64,000 nt of DNA, from positions 434,001 through 498,000 of the forward strand of contig NZ_PKRQ01000001.1 in NCBI RefSeq assembly GCF_002855575.1, written 5' to 3'. The first letter of the stretch is position 1. Every line of letters begins with the position of its first letter. The translations under genes and the position numbers were made by a program. The DNA comes from Tabrizicola sp. TH137. GTDB taxonomy: Bacteria > Pseudomonadota > Alphaproteobacteria > Rhodobacterales > Rhodobacteraceae. Under the pieces are notes generated by a model. It saw only the letters and a program-made list of their open reading frames with translations. It did not search any database and was not told the DNA's origin. Shown here one piece after another: positions 45,710-64,000 of this stretch.

Positions 45710-46822
45710 TCAGGCCGCTGTCCACACTCCGCCAGCCTCACTCGAACGGACACAGGCGCGGATGAAACGCATTCCTGCAAGTCCATCCTCAGCCGTAGCC
45801 AGCGCTCGCGTCGATGCCAACCCATTCTTTTCGATCAGGTCCGCCGCATCGGCGTATAAAGTTGCGAATGCCTCCAGATAGCCCTCGGGATGGCCGGACG
45901 GTATACGGCTTGGTGTCTGGGTCAGGCCGTCACCGCGGCGCAGCAGGCGGGTCGCGTCGCCTGTCGGCGTGAATTCAAGCAGATCGGGGTTTTCCTGATC
46001 CCAGGCCAGCCCGCCCCGTTCCCCGGCAATGCGGAACCGCAGCGCGTTCTTGGTGCCGGGGGTGATCTGGCTTGCCCAGATCATGCCCTTCGCGCCCTTA
46101 TCGAAACGCAAGAGGACTGCCGCATTGTCATCCAGCCGCCGCCCCGGTTCGAAAGCGGTCAGATCGGCCAGAACGGCCTGAACTGCCAGCCCCGAAACGA
46201 AGCTGGCGAGATTGACGGCATGTGTGCCGATATCGGCGATGCAACCGCCCTCGCCAGACATGCCGGGATCGGTGCGCCAGACCGCCTGCTTCTGCCCGCT
46301 CTTTTCCACAGGTCCCGCCAGCCAGTCCTGGAGGTATTCGACCTGCACGTGACGCACCGCCCCGATTGCGCCTTCGGCGATCATCCGGCGCGCCTCGCGC
46401 ACCATCGGATAGCCGGTATAGGTCTGGGTCAGCACGAATGGCACGGATGTTTCGCGTGCCAGTGCAGCCAGTTCCTCAGCCTCAGACAGAGTAGCGGTCA
46501 TCGGCTTGTCACAGATTACCGCAATGCCGGCCCGCAGGAAGGCCGTCGCCACCTTCGCGTGAAGATGGTTCGGCGTAACGATCGCCACCGCATTGATCCC
46601 GTCTGGACGGGATGCCTCGGAAAGCGCCATCTGCGCGAAGTCGGAATAGTTGCGGTCCGGCGCGATGCCGAGGTCTGCCGCCGAAGCCGCAGCCCGTGCC
46701 GGATCAGAGGACAGCGCCCCCGCAACCAACTCCCACCGCCCGTCCAGCCGTGCCGCAATGCGGTGGACTCCGCCGATGAAGGCCCCTTGTCCTCCGCCGA
46801 CCATGCCCAGTTTCAGTGTCAT
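45710..46822 (-). CDS. Gfo/Idh/MocA oxidoreductase (candidate 3-keto-sugar reductase)
   Basis: A 370-residue NAD(P)-dependent sugar oxidoreductase. The Rossmann start is KLGMVGGGQGAFIGGVHR, the cofactor/catalytic motif is CDKPMTATLSEAEEL (the EKP-type lysine), and the second domain has GGCIADIGTHAVNLASF with the catalytic His. It is the last gene of the operon and overlaps the isomerase by 4 bp (start ATG at 46820-46822). By analogy with levoglucosan operons it could reduce 3-ketoglucose (LgdC role). This substrate is inferred from context only. Confidence 0.85.
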   Translation of the reverse strand: MTLKLGMVGGGQGAFIGGVHRIAARLDGRWELVAGALSSDPARAAASAADLGIAPDRNYSDFAQMALSEASRPDGINAVAIVTPNHLHAKVATAFLRAGIAVICDKPMTATLSEAEELAALARETSVPFVLTQTYTGYPMVREARRMIAEGAIGAVRHVQVEYLQDWLAGPVEKSGQKQAVWRTDPGMSGEGGCIADIGTHAVNLASFVSGLAVQAVLADLTAFEPGRRLDDNAAVLLRFDKGAKGMIWASQITPGTKNALRFRIAGERGGLAWDQENPDLLEFTPTGDATRLLRRGDGLTQTPSRIPSGHPEGYLEAFATLYADAADLIEKNGLASTRALATAEDGLAGMRFIRACVRSSEAGGVWTAA

Positions 46823-47883
46823 GACCGGATCCCCAGCATTGCGTCCAGCACAGCCTGATCGGCCCTCCCGCCTGCGAAATCGTCGAAGGCTTTCCCCGTC
46901 ACCTCGATCTGATGACGGGCGATGAAGGGCGCTCCTTCGGCGGCACCCTGCGCAGGAGATTTGAGGAAGCACTCCCATTCCATCACCGCCCAGCCGCGAT
47001 AGCCGTGCTGGGTCAGACATGTGAAGACGGCCGGGAAATCCACCTGCCCGTCGCCAAGGCTGTGTAAACGTCCGGCCTGTTCAGCCCAGGGCGAGTAGCC
47101 GGAATAAACGCCCTGCCTTCCGTCTGGGCGGAATTCGGCGTCCTTGACGTGAAAGGCCGAGATACGGTCGTGGTAAAGGTCGATGAAGGCCAGATAATCC
47201 ATCGCCTGCAACAGAAAGTGCGACGGGTCGTAATTTATCCGCGCGCGGGGGTGTTCGGCCAAGGCGGACAGGAACCGCTCCCAGCTTGCGCCGTCGAAGA
47301 CATCCTCTCCGGGGTGAAGTTCGAAACCGATATCGACACCCGCATCGTCATAGGCGTCAAGGATCGGGGTCCAGCGGCGGGCAAGTTCGGCATAGGCCGT
47401 TTCAATCAGTCCGGCGGGGCGCTGCGGCCAAGGATAAAGGTAGGGGAAGGCCAGCGATCCGGTGAAACTGACCGTTCCCGAAAGCCCCAGACGCTGCGCC
47501 GCCGTTGCGGCCTTGGTCACCTGGTCCACCGCCCATGCCTGACGTGCGGCGGGATTGCCCCGCACCTTTTCGGGCGCAAACGCATCAAAGGCCGCGTCAT
47601 AGGCGGGATTCACCGCGACCAACTGGCCTTGCAAATGCGTGGACAGTTCGGTGACGGCGACCCCTGCCTCGGCGCAGATGCCCAGAACCTCGTCTGCATA
47701 GGTCTGGCTTTCGGCGCAAAGGTCCAGATCGAACAGCCGCCGATCCCAAGACGGGATCTGCACGCCCTTGTAGCCCAGCCCTGCCGCCCATGCCGTGATG
47801 GCGGGCAGGCTGTCGAAGGGCGCGTCGTTCCCCGCAAATTGCGCGAGAAAGATGCCCGGACCCTTGATCACGTTACCCGTCAT
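46819..47883 (-). CDS. Sugar phosphate isomerase/epimerase-fold protein (TIM barrel), 354 aa
   Basis: A xylose-isomerase-like TIM-barrel protein. The metal-site residues appear in FELHPGEDVFDG (Glu, His), NYDPSHFLLQ (Asp, His), HVKDAEFRPDG (His, Asp) and MEWECF (Glu). In 3-keto-glycoside pathways, proteins of this type act as lyases or hydratases on 3-ketosugars (compare LgdB1 and LgdB2), not necessarily on phosphorylated sugars. It overlaps both neighbours by 4 bp. Start ATG at 47881-47883. Confidence 0.85.
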   Translation of the reverse strand: MTGNVIKGPGIFLAQFAGNDAPFDSLPAITAWAAGLGYKGVQIPSWDRRLFDLDLCAESQTYADEVLGICAEAGVAVTELSTHLQGQLVAVNPAYDAAFDAFAPEKVRGNPAARQAWAVDQVTKAATAAQRLGLSGTVSFTGSLAFPYLYPWPQRPAGLIETAYAELARRWTPILDAYDDAGVDIGFELHPGEDVFDGASWERFLSALAEHPRARINYDPSHFLLQAMDYLAFIDLYHDRISAFHVKDAEFRPDGRQGVYSGYSPWAEQAGRLHSLGDGQVDFPAVFTCLTQHGYRGWAVMEWECFLKSPAQGAAEGAPFIARHQIEVTGKAFDDFAGGRADQAVLDAMLGIRS

Positions 47884-48185
47884 GTCGCCCTTTCCGACAG
47901 CATGGTCAGGGGCCGGATGTCCACCGGACAGGCCAGCAGACGGTCAAGCTGCGAGAAGAGCGGTTGCAGATGCGGCATCGCGAGATGGGCGTCCAGCGCG
48001 GCGCGGTCGGTCCAGTTTTCATAGAAGACGAAGACGCAGGGGTCAGCGGCATCGACATGGAAGTCGTAATTGATGCAGCCCGCCTCGGACCGCGTCGGCG
48101 CAACTTGCGCCATCAGCAGGGAGGCCAGTTCATCGCGCGTTTCCGGGCGCGCAGTCACGGTTCCGATGATCGTGTACATGGTCAT
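47880..48185 (-). CDS. ABM-domain protein (putative quinol monooxygenase, YgiN/LsrG-like)
   Basis: A 101-residue dimeric alpha-beta barrel protein of the antibiotic-biosynthesis-monooxygenase domain family. Typical features are the N-terminal strand TIIGTVTARPETRDEL, SEAGCINYDFHVD and FVFYENWTDRAALDAH. The family includes cofactor-free oxygenases and LsrG, which isomerises a keto-sugar phosphate derivative. Within this sugar operon an isomerase-like task on a keto-sugar is plausible. It overlaps the permease gene by 4 bp. The start is the ATG at 48183-48185; a second ATG two codons in is possible. Confidence 0.82.
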   Translation of the reverse strand: MTMYTIIGTVTARPETRDELASLLMAQVAPTRSEAGCINYDFHVDAADPCVFVFYENWTDRAALDAHLAMPHLQPLFSQLDRLLACPVDIRPLTMLSERAT

Positions 48186-49138
48186 CCCTTCTTCTGGCTC
48201 AGCGCAACGGCAAGGATGATGATCGCGCCCTTGGCGATCAGTTGCTGGCTGAATTCGAGCCCCATCAGGATCAGCCCATTGTTGATCATCCCGATCATCA
48301 GCGCGCCGACGATGGTGCCGATGACCGTGCCCTTGCCGCCGAAGAGGCTGGTCCCGCCGAGGACAGCCGCAGCGATGACCGACAGCTCATCCCCTTCGCC
48401 AAGCTGGAAGCGCCCGGATTGCAGGCGGCCGGCGTAGAGCATCCCCGCGAGGGCTGCGGCGCAGGAGGACAGGACCAGCACCTTGAACTTGATGCTGCGC
48501 GTGTCGATGCCGGAATAGCGCGCGGCCGTTTCGCCACCGCCGGTGGCCAGCACCTTGCGGCCAAAGCCCGACCGGCGCAGCGCGATATGGCCAATGCCCG
48601 CGATCAGCGCCATCCAGAACATCAGGACGGGGATCGGGCCAACCGAGCCTCCGCCGAAGATCCAGGAATAGCCGGGCGACAGGATCGGGACGGCGGCGGT
48701 GTCCGAAATCCACATGGCCACGCCCTTGGCGATGCCCATCATGGCAAGGGTTGTCAGGAAGGAGGGGATGCCGATCCGCGTCGTCAGCCAGCCGTTGAAC
48801 ATGCCGACGGCAAGCCCGGTTGCCAATCCGGCAAGGACGCCGCCCAGAGGCCCCGCGACGGATATCGCCATGGCGACGGTCACGGTGGTCAGACCTGCCA
48901 CCGCGCCGACCGAGAGGTCGATCTCGCCCGCCGACAGAACGAAGGTCATGGCCACGGCCATGACGGCGATCATGGCCGTCTGGCGCACGATGTTCAGCAG
49001 GTTGTTCGGATTGAGGAACCCCTTGTCGTTCAGCGTCAGCGCGAAGACGAGGAAGATCACTACGAAACCGATATAGATGATGTTCTGCCGCCAGTTGGCG
49101 AAGAAGCCCCCGGCGGGGGCGGTTGTTGCCTTAGCCAT
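48182..49138 (-). CDS. Sugar ABC transporter permease (RbsC/BPD_transp_2 family)
   Basis: A 318-residue inner-membrane permease with eight to ten helices of the ribose/xylose/inositol type. Conserved signatures include VVLSAGEIDLSVGAVAGL-like sequence in helix 3 (here FVLSAGEIDLSVGAVAGL) and the late LGGTSLFGGKGTVIGTIVGA loop. It should form the pore of the importer whose ATPase is encoded just upstream (8-bp overlap) and whose binding protein is at 51993. Confidence 0.92.
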   Translation of the reverse strand: MAKATTAPAGGFFANWRQNIIYIGFVVIFLVFALTLNDKGFLNPNNLLNIVRQTAMIAVMAVAMTFVLSAGEIDLSVGAVAGLTTVTVAMAISVAGPLGGVLAGLATGLAVGMFNGWLTTRIGIPSFLTTLAMMGIAKGVAMWISDTAAVPILSPGYSWIFGGGSVGPIPVLMFWMALIAGIGHIALRRSGFGRKVLATGGGETAARYSGIDTRSIKFKVLVLSSCAAALAGMLYAGRLQSGRFQLGEGDELSVIAAAVLGGTSLFGGKGTVIGTIVGALMIGMINNGLILMGLEFSQQLIAKGAIIILAVALSQKKG

Positions 49139-50702
49139 GGCTGGGCTCCTTGATGCTCAGGGCTTTCTGGATTTCGATCTGAAGCCGGCGCTCGGCCGCC
49201 TGAAGGGCATGTTCGGGGTCGCGTTCGGCCGGGTCGTCCAGTTCGGCGCGATCCAGCATCTGATGCGCACGACCATCGGCCATCACGAGGATGCGGTCGC
49301 AGGCCGTCAGGAGTTCGGACAGTTCCGAGGAAATGACGATCACCCCCTTCCCCGACTGGGCCAGTTCACGCACGAGGCGGATGATTTCGGCCTTCGATCC
49401 GATGTCGATGCCTGCCGTCGGTTCGTCGAGGATCAGAATTTCGGGCTCGGTCGCCAGCCATTTGCCGATCACCACCTTCTGCTGGTTGCCGCCCGAAAGG
49501 GTGGAGACGGCATGGTCGCGGCTGGCGGTCTTGATCGACAGGCGGCTGATCATGTCTTCGGCGATCTCCGCGATGCGGGCGCGGTTGACGAAGCCCTTGG
49601 GCGCGATGCGCGAGATCACCGACATCACCATGTTGTCGGCCACGCTATGGGCCGGGATGATGCCTTGGGTCGCCCGCGCCTCGGGCACGAGTGCGATGCC
49701 ATGGGCTATGGCGTCGGCGGGGCGGCGGATTTCCACCTTCGCGCCCTTTATCCTGATCTCGCCGTGAACAGAGGGTTCGATCCCGGCAATGACGCGGGCC
49801 AAGGCGGACCGACCGGACCCGAGCAGGCCCGCAAGCCCCAGCACCTCGCCCCTATGGAGGGCGAAGCTGACGTTTTCCGGCTTGTGCGGGCCGGTGACGT
49901 TCCGGAGTTCCAGCAGACTCTCGCCCCGTGCGACATCACCGCGCGCAACATCGGCCAGGCCCTTCGATTTCTTGCCGACGATATGTTCGATCATCACGTC
50001 GATGGGCAGATCGGCCAGCGGGGCGGTGATGACATGCTTGCCGTCCCGCAGGATCGTGGCACGGTCCGCGATGCGGGCAATCTCGTCCATGCGGTGGCTG
50101 ACATAGATGATCGCCACTCCCTTGGCCTTGAGTTGCCGAAGAAAGGAGAACAGCCGCTCCACATCCGACACCGACAGCGCGGTGGAGGGTTCATCGAGGA
50201 TCAACACCTGCGCTTTCTGACTGATGGCCTTGGCGATTTCGGTCAGTTGCTTTTGCCCGGCGCCCAGATCGCCCACCAGCGCGGTCGGGTCCACTTGCAC
50301 TTGCAGCATGTCAAAGAGCGCCTGCGCGCGGCGGACCGACTCTGCGTCGTCGATCATGCCGCGCGCATCCCGCGCCTCGCGCGTCAGGAAGATGTTCTGC
50401 GCCACGGTCAGCGTCGGGACCAGCGACATTTCCTGAAAGTTCATGGCGATGCCCGCCGCCCGCGCCGCTTCGGGAGAGGGGGTTGCCAGCCTTTGGCCGG
50501 CCACCTCGATCTCGCCCTCATCCGGCACGTGAACGCCGTTCAAAACCTTGAGGATCGTAGACTTCCCCGCCCCGTTGCCGCCAAGGAGGGCGTGGACTTC
50601 ACCGGCAAACACCTCGAAATCCACACCGTCCAGCGCGCGGATACCGCCGAAGGATTTGGAAATCCCGGTCATCCGCACGGCAACTGGGGCGGGGGCGGTC
50701 AT
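49131..50702 (-). CDS. Sugar ABC transporter ATP-binding protein (RbsA-type, two domains)
   Basis: A 523-residue fusion of two ABC domains as in RbsA/MglA/XylG. The first half has a complete Walker A (GGNGAGKST), though its signature region (VGDLGAGQKQLTEIAKA) departs from LSGGQ. The second half has a degenerate Walker A (GLLGSGRSALAR) with a good signature (LSGGNQQKVVIGKWL) and Walker B, the usual asymmetry of this family. The start is the ATG at 50700-50702, sharing ATGA with the dehydrogenase stop. Confidence 0.92.
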   Translation of the reverse strand: MTAPAPVAVRMTGISKSFGGIRALDGVDFEVFAGEVHALLGGNGAGKSTILKVLNGVHVPDEGEIEVAGQRLATPSPEAARAAGIAMNFQEMSLVPTLTVAQNIFLTREARDARGMIDDAESVRRAQALFDMLQVQVDPTALVGDLGAGQKQLTEIAKAISQKAQVLILDEPSTALSVSDVERLFSFLRQLKAKGVAIIYVSHRMDEIARIADRATILRDGKHVITAPLADLPIDVMIEHIVGKKSKGLADVARGDVARGESLLELRNVTGPHKPENVSFALHRGEVLGLAGLLGSGRSALARVIAGIEPSVHGEIRIKGAKVEIRRPADAIAHGIALVPEARATQGIIPAHSVADNMVMSVISRIAPKGFVNRARIAEIAEDMISRLSIKTASRDHAVSTLSGGNQQKVVIGKWLATEPEILILDEPTAGIDIGSKAEIIRLVRELAQSGKGVIVISSELSELLTACDRILVMADGRAHQMLDRAELDDPAERDPEHALQAAERRLQIEIQKALSIKEPSHG

Positions 50703-51865
50703 TCCACCCGCTCCCACTTGCCGGTTTCACCCGACCGCAGCAGGGCGTCCGCCACCAGTTCCGTCAGCAGGCCATCCTCGAAATTCGGGCTGGGCTGCTT
50801 GCCGCTGGCGATTGCGGTGAAGAGGTCGAAGCATTCCACGATCTTCGTTTCCGAATAGCCGATGCCCAGACCGGGGATCGGCCAGAGCCCGCCACCATAG
50901 GGATGCGCGGGGCCTGTATAGACGGTGCGGAAGCCGCGTGCATCGGCCGGATCGTCGGCGAACATCACCTGCAACTCGTCGCGCCGTTCGTAGTTGAAAT
51001 GGATCGAGCCCTTCGTCCCGTGAATTTCCAGTGTGATGAAGTTGTTGCGACCCCAGGCGTTGCGGGTTGCCTCCAGGCTGCCGATGGCGCCATTGCCGAA
51101 GCGCAGCATCGAGACAACCTCGTCATCCACATCGACCGGTGCGCGTTCGGCATCGGCGGATTTCTCTGACGCGCCCAGCTTGTCCACCCCGCCCTGCTGG
51201 ATCGGGCGCGTGGTAACATAGGTCTTGGTCATGGCGATCACCTCGGCGATGGGGCCGACCAGATAGTGCGCGAGATCGACGACATGGGTTCCGATATCCC
51301 CCACCGTGCCGGAGCCTGCGATCTTTTTCTGGAAGCGCCAGGACAGCGGGCCATTCTCGTCCGCCGACCAGTCCTGAAGATAGGTGCCGCGGAAGTTCAG
51401 GATACGGCCGATGCGGCCCTCGTCGATGTATTTCTTGGCCAGTGCCACGGCGGGCGTGCGGCGGTAGTTGAAGGCCACCATATGGATGATGCCAGCGGCC
51501 TTCGCTGCCTCGGTCATCGCGCGGGCCTCCTCGACGGTGCGGGCAAGGGGCTTTTCGCAGATGATGTGCTTGCCCGCCTTGGCCGCCGCGATGGCAATCT
51601 CGGCATGCACGTTGTTCGGCGTGCAGATATCGACCACGTCGATATCGGGCCGCGCCACCACGCTGCGCCAGTCGCTGGAGGCTTCGTCAAAGCCGAAGCG
51701 GCGGCGGGCTTCCTCGGCCGCGCCGTCGGTGATGTCGACAACGACCTTGCGGTGCGGGATGGCCGGTGCGGGCCAGAAGAACATCGGCATCGAGGCATAG
51801 GCCATGGCGTGCGCCTTGCCCATGAAGCCGCCGCCGATCATGGCAACGTTCATCACTTTGGTCAT
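50699..51865 (-). CDS. Gfo/Idh/MocA dehydrogenase resembling levoglucosan dehydrogenase (LgdA-like)
   Basis: A 388-residue NAD-dependent sugar dehydrogenase. The N-terminal AMIGGGFMGKAHAMAYASMP followed by MFFWPAPAIP, the motif IICEKPLARTVEEA, and VAFNYRRTPAVALAKKYI strongly recall the levoglucosan dehydrogenases described from Pseudarthrobacter and other bacteria; this comparison is from memory and not from a search. GDIGTHVVDLAHYL carries the catalytic Asp and His. It would oxidise a pyranose at C3. The start is the ATG at 51863-51865; an ATG four codons on is possible. Confidence 0.85.
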   Translation of the reverse strand: MTKVMNVAMIGGGFMGKAHAMAYASMPMFFWPAPAIPHRKVVVDITDGAAEEARRRFGFDEASSDWRSVVARPDIDVVDICTPNNVHAEIAIAAAKAGKHIICEKPLARTVEEARAMTEAAKAAGIIHMVAFNYRRTPAVALAKKYIDEGRIGRILNFRGTYLQDWSADENGPLSWRFQKKIAGSGTVGDIGTHVVDLAHYLVGPIAEVIAMTKTYVTTRPIQQGGVDKLGASEKSADAERAPVDVDDEVVSMLRFGNGAIGSLEATRNAWGRNNFITLEIHGTKGSIHFNYERRDELQVMFADDPADARGFRTVYTGPAHPYGGGLWPIPGLGIGYSETKIVECFDLFTAIASGKQPSPNFEDGLLTELVADALLRSGETGKWERVE

Positions 51866-51992: not shown

Positions 51993-53114
51993 TTACTGCA
52001 TCGAGGCCTTGATGTTTTCGGTCGCTTCGGTCGAATAGACCTGCTTCCATGCGTCGAGCAGGTTTTCCCGGCTGACCGGCAGGGCGGGCAGCGCCACGAA
52101 GTCCGGCGCGTCCTTGCCCAAGAGGGCGTAGCCGGCCAGCTTTGCCTCGACCACGCCTGCGTCATAGGGGCGTTGCGCGCCCAGCCCCTTGATGAACCCG
52201 CCCTGAGCCATGCTGATGGCAACGTTTTCGCCAAGGTCCACGGTCGTGATGATCAGGTCATCGCGGCCATTGGCGCGGGCGGCAGCCATCACGCCTTCGG
52301 CGGGAACGTCCCAGACCGCCCAGATGCCCCTGATATTCGGGTTGGCGGTCAGCATCGCCCCTGCCGCCTTTTCGGCATCGCCCGAGAAGTCAGGCCCGCC
52401 GATCCCCTGTTCATCCACGATGGTGATGTTGGGGTAATCGCTGGCGATGGTCGCCTTGAAGGCATCGTAGCGCTGTTTGGTCACGAAGAAATCTGCGGCG
52501 TGGAACACCAGCCCGATCTCGCCACCGTCCGGGCCAAGTGCCTTGGCCATCAGATGGGCGGCGGCGACGCCGTTGCCGTAGTTGTCGGCCGACACGACCG
52601 AGACATAGTCGGTCCCCGGAACGAAGCCAGCCGGAACGTTGTCCATGAACACGAGCTTCGCCCCGGCTTCTGCCGCGGCACGATAGGCAGCGGCGGTGGC
52701 GGTGGGGTCGGTCGGGATCGACACGATGATGTCGGGCGATTGCGCCATGATGGTTTCAAGGTCGCTGACCTGCTTTTCGGGCTTGAAGCCCGCATCGGTC
52801 ACGGCGATGACCTCGATCCCCATCACGCCGAACTGCGTCTGCAACCCGTTGATCTGCGCCTGGCTCCAGTCGTTGCCGCCGTAATGCATGACGATGGCAG
52901 CCGTCGCACCCATCTCCTTGATCTTGGCTAGTTCCTCGTCGCTCAGCACGACATCGGATGCGGGCGACGGGTCCTCGCCGCTCGGTCCCTTTGACAGGAC
53001 AGTTTCCTGCAACTTGGCAAGAGCCGCGTCCGGATCGGCGAAGGCGGGGACGGCGATCCCCATGAAAAGCGCAAGCGCGGTCGCCGAGCCCATGAGGCTG
53101 CGTCTGGTCAACAT
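51993..53114 (-). CDS. Periplasmic sugar-binding protein (RbsB-like)
   Basis: A 373-residue receptor of the Peripla_BP_4 (type I) family. The signal peptide (MLTRRSLMGSATALALFMG, ending AFA) has an RR pair. The mature part begins with an unusual acidic extension (about residues 27-65) before the first sugar-binding strand (ATAAIVMHYGGNDWSQAQ). Sites typical of type I binding proteins include MDNVPAGF, ADNYGNG and VDLGEN. It is the receptor of the importer at 48.2-50.7 kb. A cytoplasmic paralogue is encoded at 55580. Confidence 0.9.
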   Translation of the reverse strand: MLTRRSLMGSATALALFMGIAVPAFADPDAALAKLQETVLSKGPSGEDPSPASDVVLSDEELAKIKEMGATAAIVMHYGGNDWSQAQINGLQTQFGVMGIEVIAVTDAGFKPEKQVSDLETIMAQSPDIIVSIPTDPTATAAAYRAAAEAGAKLVFMDNVPAGFVPGTDYVSVVSADNYGNGVAAAHLMAKALGPDGGEIGLVFHAADFFVTKQRYDAFKATIASDYPNITIVDEQGIGGPDFSGDAEKAAGAMLTANPNIRGIWAVWDVPAEGVMAAARANGRDDLIITTVDLGENVAISMAQGGFIKGLGAQRPYDAGVVEAKLAGYALLGKDAPDFVALPALPVSRENLLDAWKQVYSTEATENIKASMQ

Positions 53115-53169: not shown

Positions 53170-53991
53170 TCAGCCCGCGATTGCCCGGTTCAGGTAGTCC
53201 ATGCTCAACCGCGCCCCTTCGGCGGGGTCGGGCCAGGAGTCGAGTTCGGTGCAGACCCAGCCCGCAAAGCCCACATCCCGCATCGCCTGCAGGATCGGCC
53301 CCGTCGGTACATCGCCCCGGTCAAGCGGGGTGAAGGCAAAGGGATCGCGCTGGAATCCCTTGAGGTGGATGTAGGAAATCCGCTTCGCATGGTCGCGGAT
53401 AAGCTGCGCCGGATCGCCCCCGGCAGCGGCCAGATGCGCCGTATCGGGGCAGAAATCTATGGCGGTCAGATCGAAGATCTTGGCCACTTCGGCAGGTCCT
53501 TCGACGATGGTGGAAAGATGCGGGTGGTAATGCGCCCGCAGACCCAGCGGCTCGGCCAAAGTCTTCACGCGATCCAGCGCCGCGCCCAGCTTGTGATAAT
53601 CCGGCTCGCGCGTGCCATCGAAACGCTTGGCCCCGCCGCCCACGACCAGATGCGGCGCGCCCAGTTCGGCGGCGCGGTCGGCGGCGCGGGTCACGCGGGC
53701 AAGTTCTTCGGGCAGGATGTCGTCGAAGATGAAGTTGCCGCCCGCATAGGTGGCGACCAGTTCCAGCCCGTTGTCGGCAAGAAGCTTGCGCATCTCGGCG
53801 GCGCTGTAGTCCAGAAGGTTGCCGTCGAACAGCTCCACCCCCGCATATCCGGCAGCCGCGATGTCGGCGCAGGCGCGGTCCATGTCCCCGAAGGTACGAT
53901 AGGCCAGTTGCGTGACCGAAGTGACGCCCACGGCATCCCCGCCAAGGCCGCCCCAGCAATTGGCGTGATAGGCCAGCTTCCAGGCTGTCAT
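53170..53991 (-). CDS. Sugar phosphate isomerase/epimerase-fold protein (TIM barrel), 273 aa
   Basis: A shorter xylose-isomerase-like TIM-barrel protein, first gene of the operon. Metal-binding candidates lie in LRAHYHPH (His), DFCPDTAHL (Asp, His), YIHLKGF (His) and CTELDSW (Glu). Paired with the 354-aa isomerase it recalls the LgdB1/LgdB2 pair that breaks and rehydrates 3-keto-levoglucosan. The start is the ATG at 53989-53991; the longer upstream frame covers promoter DNA. Confidence 0.85.
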   Translation of the reverse strand: MTAWKLAYHANCWGGLGGDAVGVTSVTQLAYRTFGDMDRACADIAAAGYAGVELFDGNLLDYSAAEMRKLLADNGLELVATYAGGNFIFDDILPEELARVTRAADRAAELGAPHLVVGGGAKRFDGTREPDYHKLGAALDRVKTLAEPLGLRAHYHPHLSTIVEGPAEVAKIFDLTAIDFCPDTAHLAAAGGDPAQLIRDHAKRISYIHLKGFQRDPFAFTPLDRGDVPTGPILQAMRDVGFAGWVCTELDSWPDPAEGARLSMDYLNRAIAG

Positions 53992-54127
53992 CGGTGTCCC
54001 TCCTCCCGCGGAAAGGTTGCCGGGGTTGCCCCCGCCCGTCCGATTTCTTCCGGCCTCCTCTGACCGTGACAGCGTCGTTAAGCGCGAATTCGCCATCGGT
54101 CAAGATTTTTTCTGCTTATGTTTACTT

Positions 54128-54152
54128 ACTTTTGCTTTTTTTCAGCAAAAGT
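54128..54152. promoter_or_regulatory. Inverted repeat, candidate operator of the ROK regulator
   Basis: ACTTTTGCT (54128-54136) and AGCAAAAGT (54144-54152) form a perfect 9-bp inverted repeat with a 7-base T-rich spacer in the AT-rich divergent region (53992-54200) between the sugar operon and the ROK gene. Spacing and A/T-rich half-sites fit ROK-type (NagC/Mlc) operators. A hairpin role is also possible. Confidence 0.5.
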
Positions 54153-54200
54153 TCTTTCTTGCACGGCGGAAGTCTCGCCCGTATCCCTTGAGGGACCCAT

Positions 54201-55583
54201 ATGGACGCAGCCTTGCCCCTGAACGGACCCGACCCTTCCGAATCGTCCCGCCCCCGCGGCAAAGGGCGGCCGCGCACGGTAGAAACCGCTGCGCCCTCGC
54301 TGGTCGAACTCCTCAACCTCGTTCGCACGGGTGCGGCCAACACGCGGCAGGAACTGGAACGCCAAAGCGAATTCGGCCGCGCCGTGGTGGCGGATCGCCT
54401 GACGATGCTGAGCGATCTGGGACTGGTGGACGAAAGCGAGCTTGGCACTGCCACGGGAGGCCGCGCCCCGCGTCTGGTGCGCTTTGCGGCAAGGCGCGCC
54501 GCGATCCTTGTCGCCACATTGGACCAGACCGCGATCGGGGTGGGAGTGGCTGACCTTTCCGGCAAACTCCTGACCGAACATCACGAGGCCGCCGACCTGA
54601 CCGCCCCGCCCGCCGAACTGGCCGAGCGTCTGGCCGCGCTCTTCCGCTGGTCGATGGAGCGTCATGCGCCGCAGGGTAGTATCTGGGGCATCTCCCTCTC
54701 CGTTCCCGGTGCCGTGCAGGGCGCTACGGAGGCTGACTTCCTGACCGCCACCCCGCCGGTGCTTCCCGCCTGGGAAGGCTTCCCACTGGTCGAGACGCTG
54801 ACCCGCGATTTCGGTGTCCCGGTCTGGATGCGGTCAAGCGTCGAGACGATGACGATGGGCGAGTTGCACGCAGGCGCAGGGATCGGCACGCGCAGCTTGC
54901 TTTTCCTGAAGGTCGGTCGCCGCATCGGGGCGGGCATCGTCTGTGACGGCCAGCTTTACCGAGGCGCGCATGGCGCCGCAGGTCTGATCGGATCGCTGCC
55001 AGTCACCTCAGGCGGTCGGAGTGGCCCACTCGATGCCCTCGCGGGATCGGACATGATCCAGCGCGAGGGACTGGCCGCCGCACAGGACGGGCGCAGCCCC
55101 ATGCTGGCCGAGATCCAGCGCCGCGGGGGCGAGATCACGGCCATCGAAGTCTCGCAGGCCGCCCAGATCGGCGATCCCGCCTCGGTCGCGATCCTGACGG
55201 ATTCGGGCCACCTGATCGGTCAGGTCGTGGCAACACTGGCCAATGCCTTGAACCCCGAGTTGATCGTGCTGTCGGGCTCCATCGTGCAGACGAACGACAT
55301 CCTCCTCGCCGCGCTGCGCGAGGCGGTCTATGGCGCATCGCATCCCTTCGTCACCCGTGACCTGCGGATCATCCGGTCCCAGATGGGCAGTTCAGCCGGG
55401 CTTGTTGGCGCGGCCCGCGTGGCATCGGAGCAGCTTTTCGCACCAGCCTTCCTGAAGGAATGGGTGATACAAGGCAGCCCAATCGCCCATCCGGCCTTTG
55501 CTGCCCTTCATGACCGGCTTTCCCAAGCCGCAGCGCCCCCGCCGCCGCCACGCGCACGGATCGGACAGGAGCTCATGACATGA
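54201..55583 (+). CDS. ROK-family transcriptional regulator with lost kinase and zinc motifs
   Basis: A 460-residue regulator. The N-terminal winged helix (about residues 33-80: LVELLNLVRTGAANTRQELE onward) is followed by a ROK (sugar-kinase-like) domain. Key ROK features are missing. The NDANAAALGE-type stretch is SSVETMTMGE, lacking the catalytic Asp. The ExGH plus CxCGxxGCxE zinc/sugar motif is GAAGLIGSLPVTSGG, with no Cys or ExGH. It therefore may not bind sugar as classic NagC/Mlc proteins do. It is divergent from the sugar operon and overlaps the next gene (ATGA), so both are made together. It starts at the ATG at 54201. Confidence 0.88.
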   Translation: MDAALPLNGPDPSESSRPRGKGRPRTVETAAPSLVELLNLVRTGAANTRQELERQSEFGRAVVADRLTMLSDLGLVDESELGTATGGRAPRLVRFAARRAAILVATLDQTAIGVGVADLSGKLLTEHHEAADLTAPPAELAERLAALFRWSMERHAPQGSIWGISLSVPGAVQGATEADFLTATPPVLPAWEGFPLVETLTRDFGVPVWMRSSVETMTMGELHAGAGIGTRSLLFLKVGRRIGAGIVCDGQLYRGAHGAAGLIGSLPVTSGGRSGPLDALAGSDMIQREGLAAAQDGRSPMLAEIQRRGGEITAIEVSQAAQIGDPASVAILTDSGHLIGQVVATLANALNPELIVLSGSIVQTNDILLAALREAVYGASHPFVTRDLRIIRSQMGSSAGLVGAARVASEQLFAPAFLKEWVIQGSPIAHPAFAALHDRLSQAAAPPPPPRARIGQELMT

Positions 55584-56590
55584 CGATATCCGGCCTCGGC
55601 CCGCATGGTGAACGCGCCGCGCCACCCGAAAGGGTGAGCCTGCTGCCCGACGACCGCGCCGCTGCCAAGGCCGCCGGATGGCGCGTGGCCGTCGTCCTGC
55701 ACACCTTGGAAAGCGACTGGGCCAAGCAGCAACTGGCCGGCATGATGGGCATATTCGGCGATTGCGGCGCGGCGGTGATCGACGCTGTGGACTGTGCCTT
55801 TTCCCCCGACATGCAGGTGGCCGAACTCGACCGGCTGATCTCGCAACGCCCCGATGCGATCATCTCCCTTCCCGTGGCGAATGAACAGGTCGCCGCCGCG
55901 CACCGCCGGGTGTCCGAGGCGGGAATAAAGCTGATTCTGCTGGACAACGCGCCGACCGGCCTATTGCCGGGCAAGGACTACACGGCGCTGGTGTCGTCGG
56001 ACAACTTCGGTCTGGGCAAGATCGCAGCCGCGGGTCTTTCACCACACATCCCCGATGGTGCAAAGGTCGGCGTCCTCGGCTTCGCCGCCGATTTCTTCGC
56101 CACGAACGAGCGCGAGATCGCCTTCACCAAGTGGCTTCAGTTGAACCGCCCCGACATCACCCAGCGCGTCCTCCGCTTTGCTCGGATCGAGGATGCCGCC
56201 GCGGCCGCGGATGATCTGCTGTCAGCAAACCCGGATATGGCCGGGCTATTCATCGTCTGGGATACGCCAGCCCTCGCCGCAGCCACCCGCCTTACAGAAA
56301 GCGGCGCAGCGATGCCCATGGCAACCGTAGATCTCGGAGAGGCCGCAGCCATTGCCCTCGCACAAGGCGACTCCTTCTGCTGCATCGCCGCCCAGCAACC
56401 CTTCCTGCAAGGGATCGCAGCCGCGCAGACCGTGATCCTGTGTCTTCTGGGTCGGCCCGTTCCAGCCTGGATCGCCCTGCCCGGCATTGGCGTCACGCGG
56501 GACAACGTCGTTGAAAGTTTTCAGGCAATCTGGCGGCAACCGGCCCCGCGCGAAGTGCTTCGCATGCTGGGCCTGTCACGCGGCAAATGA
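55580..56590 (+). CDS. Cytoplasmic periplasmic-binding-protein-like sensor (no signal peptide)
   Basis: A 336-residue type I binding-protein fold clearly homologous to the transporter's receptor at 51993. Parallel stretches are SDWAKQQLAGM versus NDWSQAQINGL, LLDNAPTGLLPGKDY versus FMDNVPAGFVPGTDY, FAADFFATNERE versus HAADFFVTKQRY, and ATVDLGEAAAIALAQG versus TTVDLGENVAISMAQG. It lacks any signal peptide: the N-terminus is polar (ISGLGPHGERAAPPERV). It lacks a DNA-binding domain too. Coupled to the ROK gene by ATGA overlap, it may sense the imported sugar and act on the regulator. Alternatively it could be a decayed receptor, though its frame is intact. Confidence 0.85.
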   Translation: MTISGLGPHGERAAPPERVSLLPDDRAAAKAAGWRVAVVLHTLESDWAKQQLAGMMGIFGDCGAAVIDAVDCAFSPDMQVAELDRLISQRPDAIISLPVANEQVAAAHRRVSEAGIKLILLDNAPTGLLPGKDYTALVSSDNFGLGKIAAAGLSPHIPDGAKVGVLGFAADFFATNEREIAFTKWLQLNRPDITQRVLRFARIEDAAAAADDLLSANPDMAGLFIVWDTPALAAATRLTESGAAMPMATVDLGEAAAIALAQGDSFCCIAAQQPFLQGIAAAQTVILCLLGRPVPAWIALPGIGVTRDNVVESFQAIWRQPAPREVLRMLGLSRGK

Positions 56591-61644: not shown

Positions 61645-62017
61645 GGGGATGGCCTTATGTCGATTCTCTTGGTCGTGATTAAACCTGCCACCGAACCGCG
61701 CCTCCGGCCATTCCAAAGGTCGGTGTGAAACGAGAAGAAACCTGTGCCTTGAACGCCCCCGGCAAGGGGAAGTTTCTCTGCCCCGCCCCCTCGCGCGCGG
61801 GGAAAGATGGGGGCGGCGGAACTGGCCGGGGCGATCCCCTCCCCTCCGGCTGCATCCTTGTGGGGCACAGCTTCGGTGCGGTGCGGGCGAGGCCCGTCTC
61901 GGATTGTTCACGTTGTGGAAACAACAGGACGGCTATCGGTGCGAATTCAGAGTGCTTGACTCGATCAAGGGTTATTAACACGCTTTTCACAGCAAGTTTA
62001 TTTCCGCGGAGAAAATC
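61645..62017. other. Divergent promoter region
   Basis: This 373-bp gap lies between the FMN reductase and the glycine-rich protein and must hold both promoters. The right part (about 61915-62010) is clearly richer in A and T than its surroundings and contains TTGACT (61956-61961) and TATTAA further on, but with wrong spacing for a standard promoter. A GC-rich inverted block (CCCCGCCC...GGGG) is near 61781-61803. No known operator recognised. Confidence 0.4.
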
Positions 62018-64000
62018 ATGATCCTCTCGAATAAGCCTCGGATTCGTAAATGCATTACCGCGCTGCCCCTGATTCTCCTCCTTCCCGGCATCGGAAACCC
62101 AGCGGGTGCGGCGACTGTTGACCTGGTCGGGACAAACGGAATTCTGGGCGTTTCGGGCGTGAATCCCGGGGAGTCCGGGACGGACGGGGGGAATGGCGGC
62201 GATGCCGTGGCCCTGTCGAATGCGGATGTGACCAGTAACGAGGCCTATGCGACCGGGGGCAACGGGGGGGATGGCGGCGTTGGCGTGCTTCCGGGCGGGT
62301 CGCAGGGTGCGGGCGGCAATGGCGGCGGGGCGAGTGCGACGGCGACCACGGTCAATCCGGGCGGCGGGGCGACTGCGTCGGCACGGGCGACGGGCGGAAC
62401 GGGTGGAAACGCCGGCTTCGTCGGAGAGCTTGGCGCAGGCGGCGGGGCCGGTGGCGCGGCGACGGCCAGCGCCAGTACGGAAGCGGCGGGTGGCAATGCG
62501 GATTCGCGGAGCGAAGCCTATGGCGGCACTGGCGGCGCGGGATATGGGGTCGGGCATGTCGGTGGAGAGGGCGGGATCGCGACGGCCTTTGCCGATGCGG
62601 TTCAGAATTCCGCTGACGGTGGAGTGTACGCGCAGGCATGGCAATTCGGCGGCGCGGGCGGCATCGGTTTTGCGGGGGCCGATGGCGGGAGCGGCGCAGA
62701 ATCGGTGATGACCAATGCCACCACGGCGACTGGGCTGGCGTTCAACACTACCCTGAACTCCTACGGCGCTGGGGGCGCCGGGGGCGATACCGCAGGTGGC
62801 GGGAATGGCGGGCGCGGCGGGGATGCAACGACGGTGCTGTCCTTCAGCAAGGATGGCGACAGCCAGACGTTTAACAGCGCGAGGGCCGACGCGACGGGGG
62901 GCACGGGTGGCAGCACCAATGACGGGGGCCTGGGCGGACAGGGCGGCAATGCCGGGGTTGATCTGGATATGGTTGCGTCGGGGCTGGACCATTGGCTGAC
63001 CGCAACCGGCACTGCGACGGGCGGGGCCTCGGGTAGATCGACCAGCGGAAACGGCCTTGCGGGCGGGTCGGCGACGTCTTCGGTTTCGGTGATGTCCGAG
63101 AAGAGTGAACGCCGATGGTTTCAGTATGACTCGGCAAGCAGTTCGGCTTTCGGTGGCAAGGGGGGCGATGCAAGTGGCCCCGGCTTTGCTGGCGGCGTCG
63201 GGGGGACGGCATCGGCATCGGCTTCGGCCGTCAGTGATGGATATGCCGCAGCGACTGCGAGCCAGATTGGCGGAGCGGGCGGAGATGGGCGGAATGGTGC
63301 GCGTGGCGGGGACGGGGCTGCCTCTATAATGACGAATGCCGTCGCGGCGACTTCGCCGTTCGGCATCAACCTCGCGCAAAATGCCTATGGAGGTGCAGGC
63401 GGAGCAAGCGACAGCCAAGGGGGACGTGGCGGGGATGCAACCTCTTCCCTCACGCTCGACATGGGAACGGCTGCGAGTGATGTGTTTGCCTCTGTTTATG
63501 CCGCGGGCGGGGCTGGAGGAACGACCTTCGGCAACCCCCTTAGCATTGACGGGGATGGGGGGGATGCGACGGCGCTTGTGGACGTCACCGCACTCAACAC
63601 GACGTCGGCAACAGTTTATGCACAGGCGCGAGGCGGATCAGCGGGAAATGTTTTCTATTCCGGTGGTTCGGATGAGGCTGACGGAAGCGCCACGGCCAAC
63701 GCGCGGCTGACCATGGGGGCTGATAACGCCTACGGGGCAGTGAGTGCAAATGCCTATAGCGGGACCGCCTGCCTTGGCTGCGGAAGCAATACAGGCAACA
63801 GCGCCGATGCCCTGGCCGAGGTGGTGGGTGCGACCGGAGGCTATGCCGCGGCAAACAGCACATCGGCGGGCAGCAGCGGCTATGTCGAGGCCAACAGCTA
63901 TGCGACGGTCGCCAGCCCGGCCACGGCGGTGACGCATTCAAGCGTCGGGACGGCGGTCACGCCCGGTGTCTTTGGCCTTCTGGCCGGGACGGCGGTCAGC
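62018..64000 (+). CDS. Secreted glycine-rich repeat protein, 3' end outside the window
   Basis: Manual reading gives an unbroken frame of 661 codons from the ATG at 62018 (GGAGAAAATC before it) to the window edge. The N-terminus is a signal peptide (basic start, hydrophobic ALPLILLLPGIG, ending PAGA). The rest is dominated by Gly, Ala, Ser, Thr, Asp and Asn, with repeated GGxGGD/GGAGG blocks alternating with short beta-like stretches (such as ATASARATGG). Two long sections resemble each other about 207 residues apart (SVMTNATTATGLAFN... and SIMTNAVAATSPFGIN...). A single C-L-G-C stands near codon 588. The design is that of a surface, matrix or adhesin protein; function not recognised. A C-terminal anchor or secretion signal would lie beyond the window. 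Confidence 0.8.
   Translation, partial: MILSNKPRIRKCITALPLILLLPGIGNPAGAATVDLVGTNGILGVSGVNPGESGTDGGNGGDAVALSNADVTSNEAYATGGNGGDGGVGVLPGGSQGAGGNGGGASATATTVNPGGGATASARATGGTGGNAGFVGELGAGGGAGGAATASASTEAAGGNADSRSEAYGGTGGAGYGVGHVGGEGGIATAFADAVQNSADGGVYAQAWQFGGAGGIGFAGADGGSGAESVMTNATTATGLAFNTTLNSYGAGGAGGDTAGGGNGGRGGDATTVLSFSKDGDSQTFNSARADATGGTGGSTNDGGLGGQGGNAGVDLDMVASGLDHWLTATGTATGGASGRSTSGNGLAGGSATSSVSVMSEKSERRWFQYDSASSSAFGGKGGDASGPGFAGGVGGTASASASAVSDGYAAATASQIGGAGGDGRNGARGGDGAASIMTNAVAATSPFGINLAQNAYGGAGGASDSQGGRGGDATSSLTLDMGTAASDVFASVYAAGGAGGTTFGNPLSIDGDGGDATALVDVTALNTTSATVYAQARGGSAGNVFYSGGSDEADGSATANARLTMGADNAYGAVSANAYSGTACLGCGSNTGNSADALAEVVGATGGYAAANSTSAGSSGYVEANSYATVASPATAVTHSSVGTAVTPGVFGLLAGTAVS

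Follow-up and report, generated by a model that had tools for sequence, protein, structure and literature searches.

A ROK regulator without sugar and zinc motifs and its adjoining cytoplasmic receptor homologue: a probable split sugar sensor of a levoglucosan-type operon in Tabrizicola sp. TH137

How might a regulator sense sugar when it has lost the residues by which its family binds sugar and zinc? The question is raised by a 64,000-nucleotide stretch of the Tabrizicola sp. TH137 genome (contig NZ_PKRQ01000001.1, positions 434,001 to 498,000; hereafter the window), in which a gene for such a regulator, of the ROK family, is followed by a gene for a cytoplasmic substrate-binding-protein homologue (cSBP). 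An earlier note on this DNA had proposed that sensing was handed over to cSBP, a relative of the periplasmic sugar receptor (pSBP) of the divergent operon. Our comparisons lead us to regard the ROK protein and cSBP as probably forming a split cytoplasmic sugar sensor of a levoglucosan-type catabolic operon. The elements in question are as follows.

54201..55583, + strand: ROK regulator with a winged-helix N-terminus, sugar and zinc motifs lost (PF00480; Lmo0178 structure 5f7q; motif columns)
55580..56590, + strand: cSBP, a cytoplasmic substrate-binding-protein homologue without signal peptide
55580..55583, + strand: stop/start overlap of the ROK and cSBP genes, 4 bp, ATGA (sequence)
54128..54152, no strand: palindrome ACTTTTGCT-N7-AGCAAAAGT, probable ROK operator (recurs in divergent intergenic regions)
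51993..53114, - strand: pSBP, a periplasmic sugar receptor with signal peptide (PF13407; hydrophobic N-terminus)

Conservation of the gene pair

The best 80 of 101 cSBP relatives were taken from a scan of species genomes; according to the record titles they come mostly from Rhodobacterales and Rhizobiales, and a few records are named only Proteobacteria, Alphaproteobacteria or Rhodospirillaceae. A ROK gene lies directly upstream, on the same strand, in all 79 readable loci, the contig of the other one (L057) beginning inside the gene. Judged from these sequences, a pairing conserved in 79 of 79 loci with upstream sequence is beyond chance. In one locus (L120) the ROK gene is split into two frames, and in another (L113), which is without the exact start motif and for which no gap was computed, the ROK frame ends beside its cSBP. 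The gaps between the two genes in the other 78 loci and the window (n = 79) are -4 in 35 cases and 9-27 bp in 35 of the other 44; 71 gaps are 25 bp or less, and the maximum is 95. The 4-bp overlap that the earlier note had reported at 55580-55583 is thus present in the window, but it is not universal, and strict translational coupling, which had also been suggested, is not general.

The family, class and phylum genomes were scanned by scoring the best 4-8 candidates per genome. Among 248 family genomes, cSBP matches of at least 55% identity occur in six; any match at E 1e-30 is found in 18, the others having at most 37% identity. The ROK gene at E 1e-50 is present in the same six genomes as the close cSBP matches, and none of these six matches contains an internal stop. 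Co-occurrence, which the earlier note had proposed as a check, therefore extends far past this strain. Four of 385 class genomes have the ROK gene at E 1e-60 (three paired, one intact and unpaired), as do five of 398 phylum genomes at E 1e-50 (two paired, three intact and unpaired).

Plasmid searches gave 13 records with cSBP (E 1e-70) and 15 with ROK (E 1e-60), 12 of them common to both; a second Agrobacterium record (AFSD01000008) among the ROK matches was left out of inspection. Since the limit of 1e-70 misses weaker cSBP relatives, the stretches L183, L184 and L187-L189 were rescanned at E 0.01, which revealed one exported-type receptor in each and two in L189. These two, in a Metabacillus plasmid (L189, 1360-2592 and 6664-7962), lie in one cluster and both begin with a signal-like stretch. 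The thirteenth cSBP record, the Ochrobactrum plasmid CP061776 (L185, 6650-7001), was considered as a case of cSBP without ROK and rejected: a 3' piece of a ROK gene stands just upstream of a full-length cSBP, so that the locus has decayed. Among the loci seen, the pairing is broken nowhere else. That bacteria with levoglucosan genes often keep a motif-less ROK protein beside an intracellular receptor copy suggests that the copy may sense for the regulator.

Lost motifs in the regulator and the receptor copy

The window ROK matches the ROK domain PF00480 with 110 bits (cut-off 22.9) over residues 110-409. The best structural match of its model (mean pLDDT 85.9) is Lmo0178, a ROK repressor bound to its operator (5f7q), which is also the nearest full-length structure; the sequence alignment to Lmo0178 starts at residue 37, and the fold match spans 406 columns and covers the N-terminal winged helix. 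By its predicted fold the protein is a ROK regulator that has lost the usual ligand residues, and DNA binding is predicted. When it is aligned with Mlc, Lmo0178 and intact relatives, S213, within WMRSSVETMTMGEL, stands in place of the catalytic Asp (NDVN in the intact relatives); ExGH is replaced by LIGS (262-265), the Glu position being L262; and the Cys cluster CxCGxxGC was sought in the protein and is absent. All three losses had been claimed in the earlier note and are borne out. They are also common to the paired relatives (79 loci plus the window, n = 80): position 213 is S in 76, N in three and a gap in one; position 262 is L in all 80; the His of ExGH (position 265) is retained in three; and no Cys cluster was found at the aligned positions in any of the 80. 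The text pattern E.GH is present in 11 of the 80, never at the ExGH column.

In a tree, all 26 paired ROKs are without the catalytic Asp, and 10 unpaired sister ROKs keep NDVN, GDVGH and CxCGxxGC. The Cys cluster is retained in all of the nearest unpaired ROKs, which come from 21 of 82 genomes of another order, and seven larger stretches around unpaired ROKs show a transporter operon and no cSBP. Two early-branching paired ROKs (L129/L132 and L154/L161) have lost Asp and Glu and kept His and the Cys cluster, as expected for stepwise loss. A pair on a plasmid of Mesorhizobium sp. 131-2-5 (L180, 1-9969; source Lotus japonicus) is similar: its ROK, 127 bp from cSBP, is without Asp and Glu and keeps CxCGxxGC. 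This pair adjoins an operon that encodes a GMC oxidoreductase and a subunit of gluconate 2-dehydrogenase. The ROK-cSBP module may thus serve more than one sugar route, and the Mesorhizobium variant may see another sugar.

The clearest natural control is an operon on an Arthrobacter agilis plasmid, which combines LgdA (66% identical), an LgdB1-like gene, receptor and transporter homologues, and a divergent ROK gene whose product has NDAN, GDIGH and CRCGKRGCLE. In the 19 kb seen there is only one binding-protein gene, of the operon's own exported type, and no cSBP; judged from its sequence, this operon has a motif-intact ROK with no cSBP nearby. The conserved C-terminal tail of the window ROK (W421, P431, F433) was considered as a docking site and dropped, because a similar tail (YW...TPAGHPN) occurs in the Arthrobacter ROK, which has no cSBP. 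Five loci (L037, L040, L043, L044 and L046) were likewise rejected as a second ROK-receptor system: their ROKs keep NDVN, and the receptors whose starts are visible have signal peptides, which is the ordinary arrangement. In two of them (L037, 9418-11676; L040, 8415-10826) two tandem receptors of this type, with signal peptides, lie downstream of the NDVN-keeping ROK, in another sugar operon.

Among the paired ROKs, RSSVETMTMGE, the stretch of the former active site, is highly conserved and hence functional, which would fit a ROK protein that itself senses a ligand in a remodelled pocket, cSBP being accessory or having another role; a ROK on an Agrobacterium plasmid that has lost Asp and Glu with no cSBP nearby (L184) also speaks for this. 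We nevertheless hold such sensing to be improbable: the main clade retains neither Asp nor the Glu of ExGH nor the Cys cluster, and among the loci seen the pairing is unbroken save in the one decayed plasmid locus.

The cSBP matches Peripla_BP_4 (PF13407) with 93.9 bits over residues 36-288 of 336. This is its sole match in a domain search, in which no helix-turn-helix (HTH) family was found. Its predicted structure (pLDDT 93.9) is that of a complete ribose-type binding protein. As the earlier note had stated, it matches the divergent pSBP along its full length (36% identity and 58% similarity over 331 columns, residues 2-326 of 336). Searched against its own genome, it finds itself, the pSBP of the operon and one weaker relative at 30%.

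In the periplasmic form, the motif GPxGE is preceded by a signal peptide and a linker. In the cSBPs the nearest start codon stands exactly six residues before GPxGE in 66 of 80 and 1-17 residues before it in the other 14. Another in-frame start lies 10-75 residues ahead of GPxGE in 39 of the 80, but the best hydrophobic stretch from these starts reaches at most 1.78, compared with at least 1.89 in 76 pSBPs (mean Kyte-Doolittle value over 10 residues, a crude measure rather than SignalP, with group extremes that nearly touch); by a second measure the extremes are 1.69 and 1.80. A signal peptide masked by a wrong start was therefore rejected, the upstream in-frame starts being less hydrophobic than the weakest pSBP, by a small margin. 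By start position and hydrophobicity, cSBP and its close homologues lack the export signal of Peripla_BP_4 receptors, in agreement with the earlier note, and the operon has pSBP as a separate exported receptor.

On a quick tree the cSBPs group into one clade, separate from the pSBPs (27 rows, SH-aLRT 98). At 90% conservation, 63 columns are the same in 80 cSBPs and 76 pSBPs and 40 are fixed differently. Among the columns specific to the cSBPs are T42, C72, N101, R110, W185, R190, F200, W297 and W318. Residues common to both include H41, D46, W47, D122, N123, F172, R178, W227, D228, D251 and Q272, which, by alignment to ribose-type binding proteins, would lie in or close to the sugar-binding site. 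That this set is shared while 40 columns differ points to a ligand site that was kept while other parts changed. In one deep lineage (L161, 3263-4429) the periplasmic receptor sits on a very long branch and its cSBP is ordinary, so that the copies can drift apart. The cSBPs differ about twice as much as the pSBPs (mean distance 0.51 vs 0.26), as might a decaying duplicate standing beside a ROK repressor that is unregulated or otherwise controlled, and Mlc is a known case of a ROK protein under the control of a partner protein. We consider this very unlikely, because the cSBPs cluster in a single clade and have sites that are invariant across two orders, and the matches of the six close family members are free of internal stops.

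Rate co-variation, operator and operon

Distances were correlated for 70 loci with seven genes (21 gene pairs), the partial r holding the other five genes constant. The ROK-cSBP pair has r 0.92 and a partial r of 0.77, the highest of the 21 and reached in none of 999 label permutations, a control that ignores relatedness. The next-best partial values are 0.47 (ATPase-permease) and 0.41 (cSBP-pSBP); that of ROK with its other neighbour is -0.04.

These values bear on whether cSBP could be an intracellular carrier or buffer that supplies the dehydrogenase with levoglucosan or gates the transporter from the cytoplasmic side, its place beside ROK reflecting only a common regulon. The retained receptor binding-site residues, the position adjoining the operon in the loci read and some co-variation with pSBP (0.41) agree with such a role. 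However, the rate of cSBP tracks ROK (0.77) and not the dehydrogenase (-0.09), the ATPase (0.17) or the permease (-0.05), and in 76 loci the cSBP gene stands behind that of the regulator, pointing away from the enzyme genes. A carrier would explain neither the motif loss in ROK nor the motif retention in the Arthrobacter operon, and we think it an unlikely function.

The 209-bp divergent region (the start of the divergent gene is an estimate) contains a 9+9 palindrome 48 bp ahead of the ROK start. A query derived from the window, CTTTTGC-N9-GCAAAAG, was found with at most three mismatches in 76 of 76 divergent regions (75 loci plus the window; the loci are related, not independent), with 0, 1, 2 and 3 mismatches in 19, 30, 19 and 8, respectively. 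Among 1443 random stretches from the same loci, none has two mismatches or fewer and 20 have three. This recurrence makes the palindrome at 54128-54152 a probable ROK operator. A terminator-like score (one found, shuffle mean 0.5) was set aside, because both genes lie downstream of the palindrome, whose half-sites are conserved in sequence and not just in pairing. No sigma-70-like promoter was found in 54000-54300.

The divergent genes, besides that of pSBP, are as follows.

53170..53991, - strand: TIM-barrel-type gene (PF01261; searched as 53170-54024) adjoining the LgdA-like gene; start codon and role putative, roles as in PMC7676230 and PMC10066097
50699..51865, - strand: levoglucosan dehydrogenase-like (LgdA) Gfo/Idh/MocA oxidoreductase (match to 6a3f, identical in sequence to 6a3i, with E 6.6e-178 over residues 5-385)
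49131..50717, - strand: ATPase of a sugar ATP-binding cassette (ABC) transporter, arabinose/xylose/ribose type (family matches)
48182..49138, - strand: sugar ABC permease (open reading frame; the Paracoccus zhejiangensis gene at the same position is annotated ABC transporter permease)
47880..48185, - strand: small protein (open reading frame and annotation; the relative's gene at the same position is annotated 'putative quinol monooxygenase')
46819..47883, - strand: 2-hydroxy-3-keto-glucal hydratase homologue, TIM barrel (8ro4, E 3.4e-147)
45710..46825, - strand: probable 3-keto-glucose reductase, Gfo/Idh/MocA oxidoreductase (3v5n, 'oxidoreductase', E 8.8e-132); LgdC role and start putative

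An LgdA homologue, isomerase-like TIM barrels and a sugar ABC transporter thus stand together, as in a levoglucosan operon whose activity is predicted by homology. Structure 6A3I is named LGDH in PMC10066097. PMC7676230 and PMC10628242 describe a levoglucosan scheme of oxidation, elimination, hydration and reduction, which the LgdA-like, hydratase-like and 3v5n-like enzymes of the window fit. Elsewhere in the window, at 61679-64000 on the minus strand, there are low-complexity Pro/Ala-rich frames; a tandem repeat array was searched for there and none was found.

LgdA of at least 80% identity is present in nine plasmid records, all nine of which are also in the ROK and cSBP lists; LgdA of 66-71% identity is present in five, none of which is in the cSBP list. 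Four of these five were inspected: one has an intact ROK, and the others have, by annotation, LuxR-type, LacI or Rrf2 genes nearby as candidate regulators. Of the 14 records below 60% identity, one was inspected (H50); a second Klebsiella record was left out. On the Klebsiella plasmid pBS317-1.2 (L188, 4086-5749) a levoglucosan-type operon is preceded by a LacI-type regulator; an 84-residue gene annotated there as 'substrate-binding domain' has no match to cSBP or pSBP at E 0.01. Shinella sumterensis MEC087 is named as a levoglucosan degrader in PMC10066097, and its ROK-cSBP pair (L093) lies beside its sole LgdA homologue of more than 50% identity. Because the divergent operon matches LgdA and 2-hydroxy-3-keto-glucal hydratase, and in view of the plasmid co-listing and the Shinella locus, the ligand is probably levoglucosan or an intermediate of its pathway.

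Proposed mechanism and known systems

In the mechanism that we propose, ROK would be the DNA-binding half: it would bind the intergenic palindrome (54128-54152) and repress in both directions. The cSBP, a copy of the operon's receptor type, would bind the imported, unphosphorylated sugar in the cytoplasm, and sugar-bound cSBP would alter the hold of ROK on DNA by contact. Support for such a split sensor is drawn from the pairing in 79 of 79 loci, the co-listing in six family genomes, the motif loss with a partner, the kept ligand site, the co-variation, the palindrome and the Shinella locus. As for its origin, we lean towards a history in which a duplicate of the transport receptor shed its export signal and turned into an obligatory sensing subunit, after which the ligand and zinc sites of ROK decayed; the signal would then pass from protein to protein to DNA, as in a LacI regulator split into two.

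Several points weigh against this interpretation. The ROK of Agrobacterium plasmid CP039912 (L184, 8028-9269) has lost Asp and the ExGH Glu and keeps the Cys cluster, and only a signal-peptide receptor is nearby. Pairing and motif loss are each one change on quick, long-branch trees, so that the association is not independently repeated and no test of independent association is possible. The co-variation of ROK and cSBP can also be obtained from joint transfer or a shared high rate, and the pocket residues of cSBP were placed by sequence alignment to ribose-type binding proteins, with sugar contacts that are putative. The handover of sensing put forward in the earlier note is thus favoured by the Arthrobacter operon, the rate co-variation, the conserved binding-site residues and the palindrome, but the Agrobacterium ROK, with no cSBP in the stretch seen, does not fit it.

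ROK repressors are known to use palindromic sites between divergent sugar genes. By sequence and fold, the window ROK shares the ROK domain and the N-terminal winged helix with NagC/Mlc and Lmo0178, and it likewise has a palindrome between divergent sugar genes; it differs in lacking all three motifs (catalytic Asp, ExGH Glu, Cys cluster) and in having a dedicated binding-protein gene attached. An intact sugar site and zinc cluster, typical though not universal in the family, are lacking. Mlc is controlled by the transporter protein EIIBGlc, and the Mlc/EIIB complex (3bp8) is among the structures listed for the window ROK. The proposed system would likewise have a ROK regulator governed by a protein partner, here a next-door binding-protein homologue and not a component of the phosphotransferase system (PTS).

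LacI-family regulators use the ribose-binding-protein fold as an intracellular sugar sensor. In the window, by contrast, separate genes encode the proposed sensor and the regulator, DNA binding would fall to a ROK protein, and cSBP has no HTH fused to its binding-protein fold. A LacI regulator is annotated beside the related Klebsiella plasmid operon. CuaD of Ruminiclostridium cellulolyticum reportedly acts outside the membrane with a two-component system. As proposed for cSBP, it is an additional solute-binding protein, encoded beside other genes, that serves signalling (PMC10384115), whereas cSBP has no signal peptide and its neighbour is a ROK protein. LacI regulators adjoin levoglucosan operons in Bacillus smithii (PMC7676230). 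In the open-licence literature searched, we found no account of a ROK regulator that has a cytoplasmic binding protein as its partner, and likewise no paper joining the ROK family and levoglucosan, although ROK factors near lgdA are mentioned in PMC10066097. By sequence, the pair would most likely be a new variant of ROK regulation, working like a LacI regulator cut in two, though not a LacI member.

Levoglucosan is a sugar from burning plants and a marker of biomass burning; the pair offers an operator sequence and a candidate levoglucosan sensor, with potential for a biosensor. If our reading is true, the pair would add a new, two-gene type to the sugar regulators and would be the candidate regulator of the alphaproteobacterial levoglucosan operon. 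It would also reveal a stepwise route from a kinase-derived regulator to sensing by a receptor copy, of which intermediates (Asp gone, Cys cluster still present) and an ancestor-like control survive today, the latter in a related operon.

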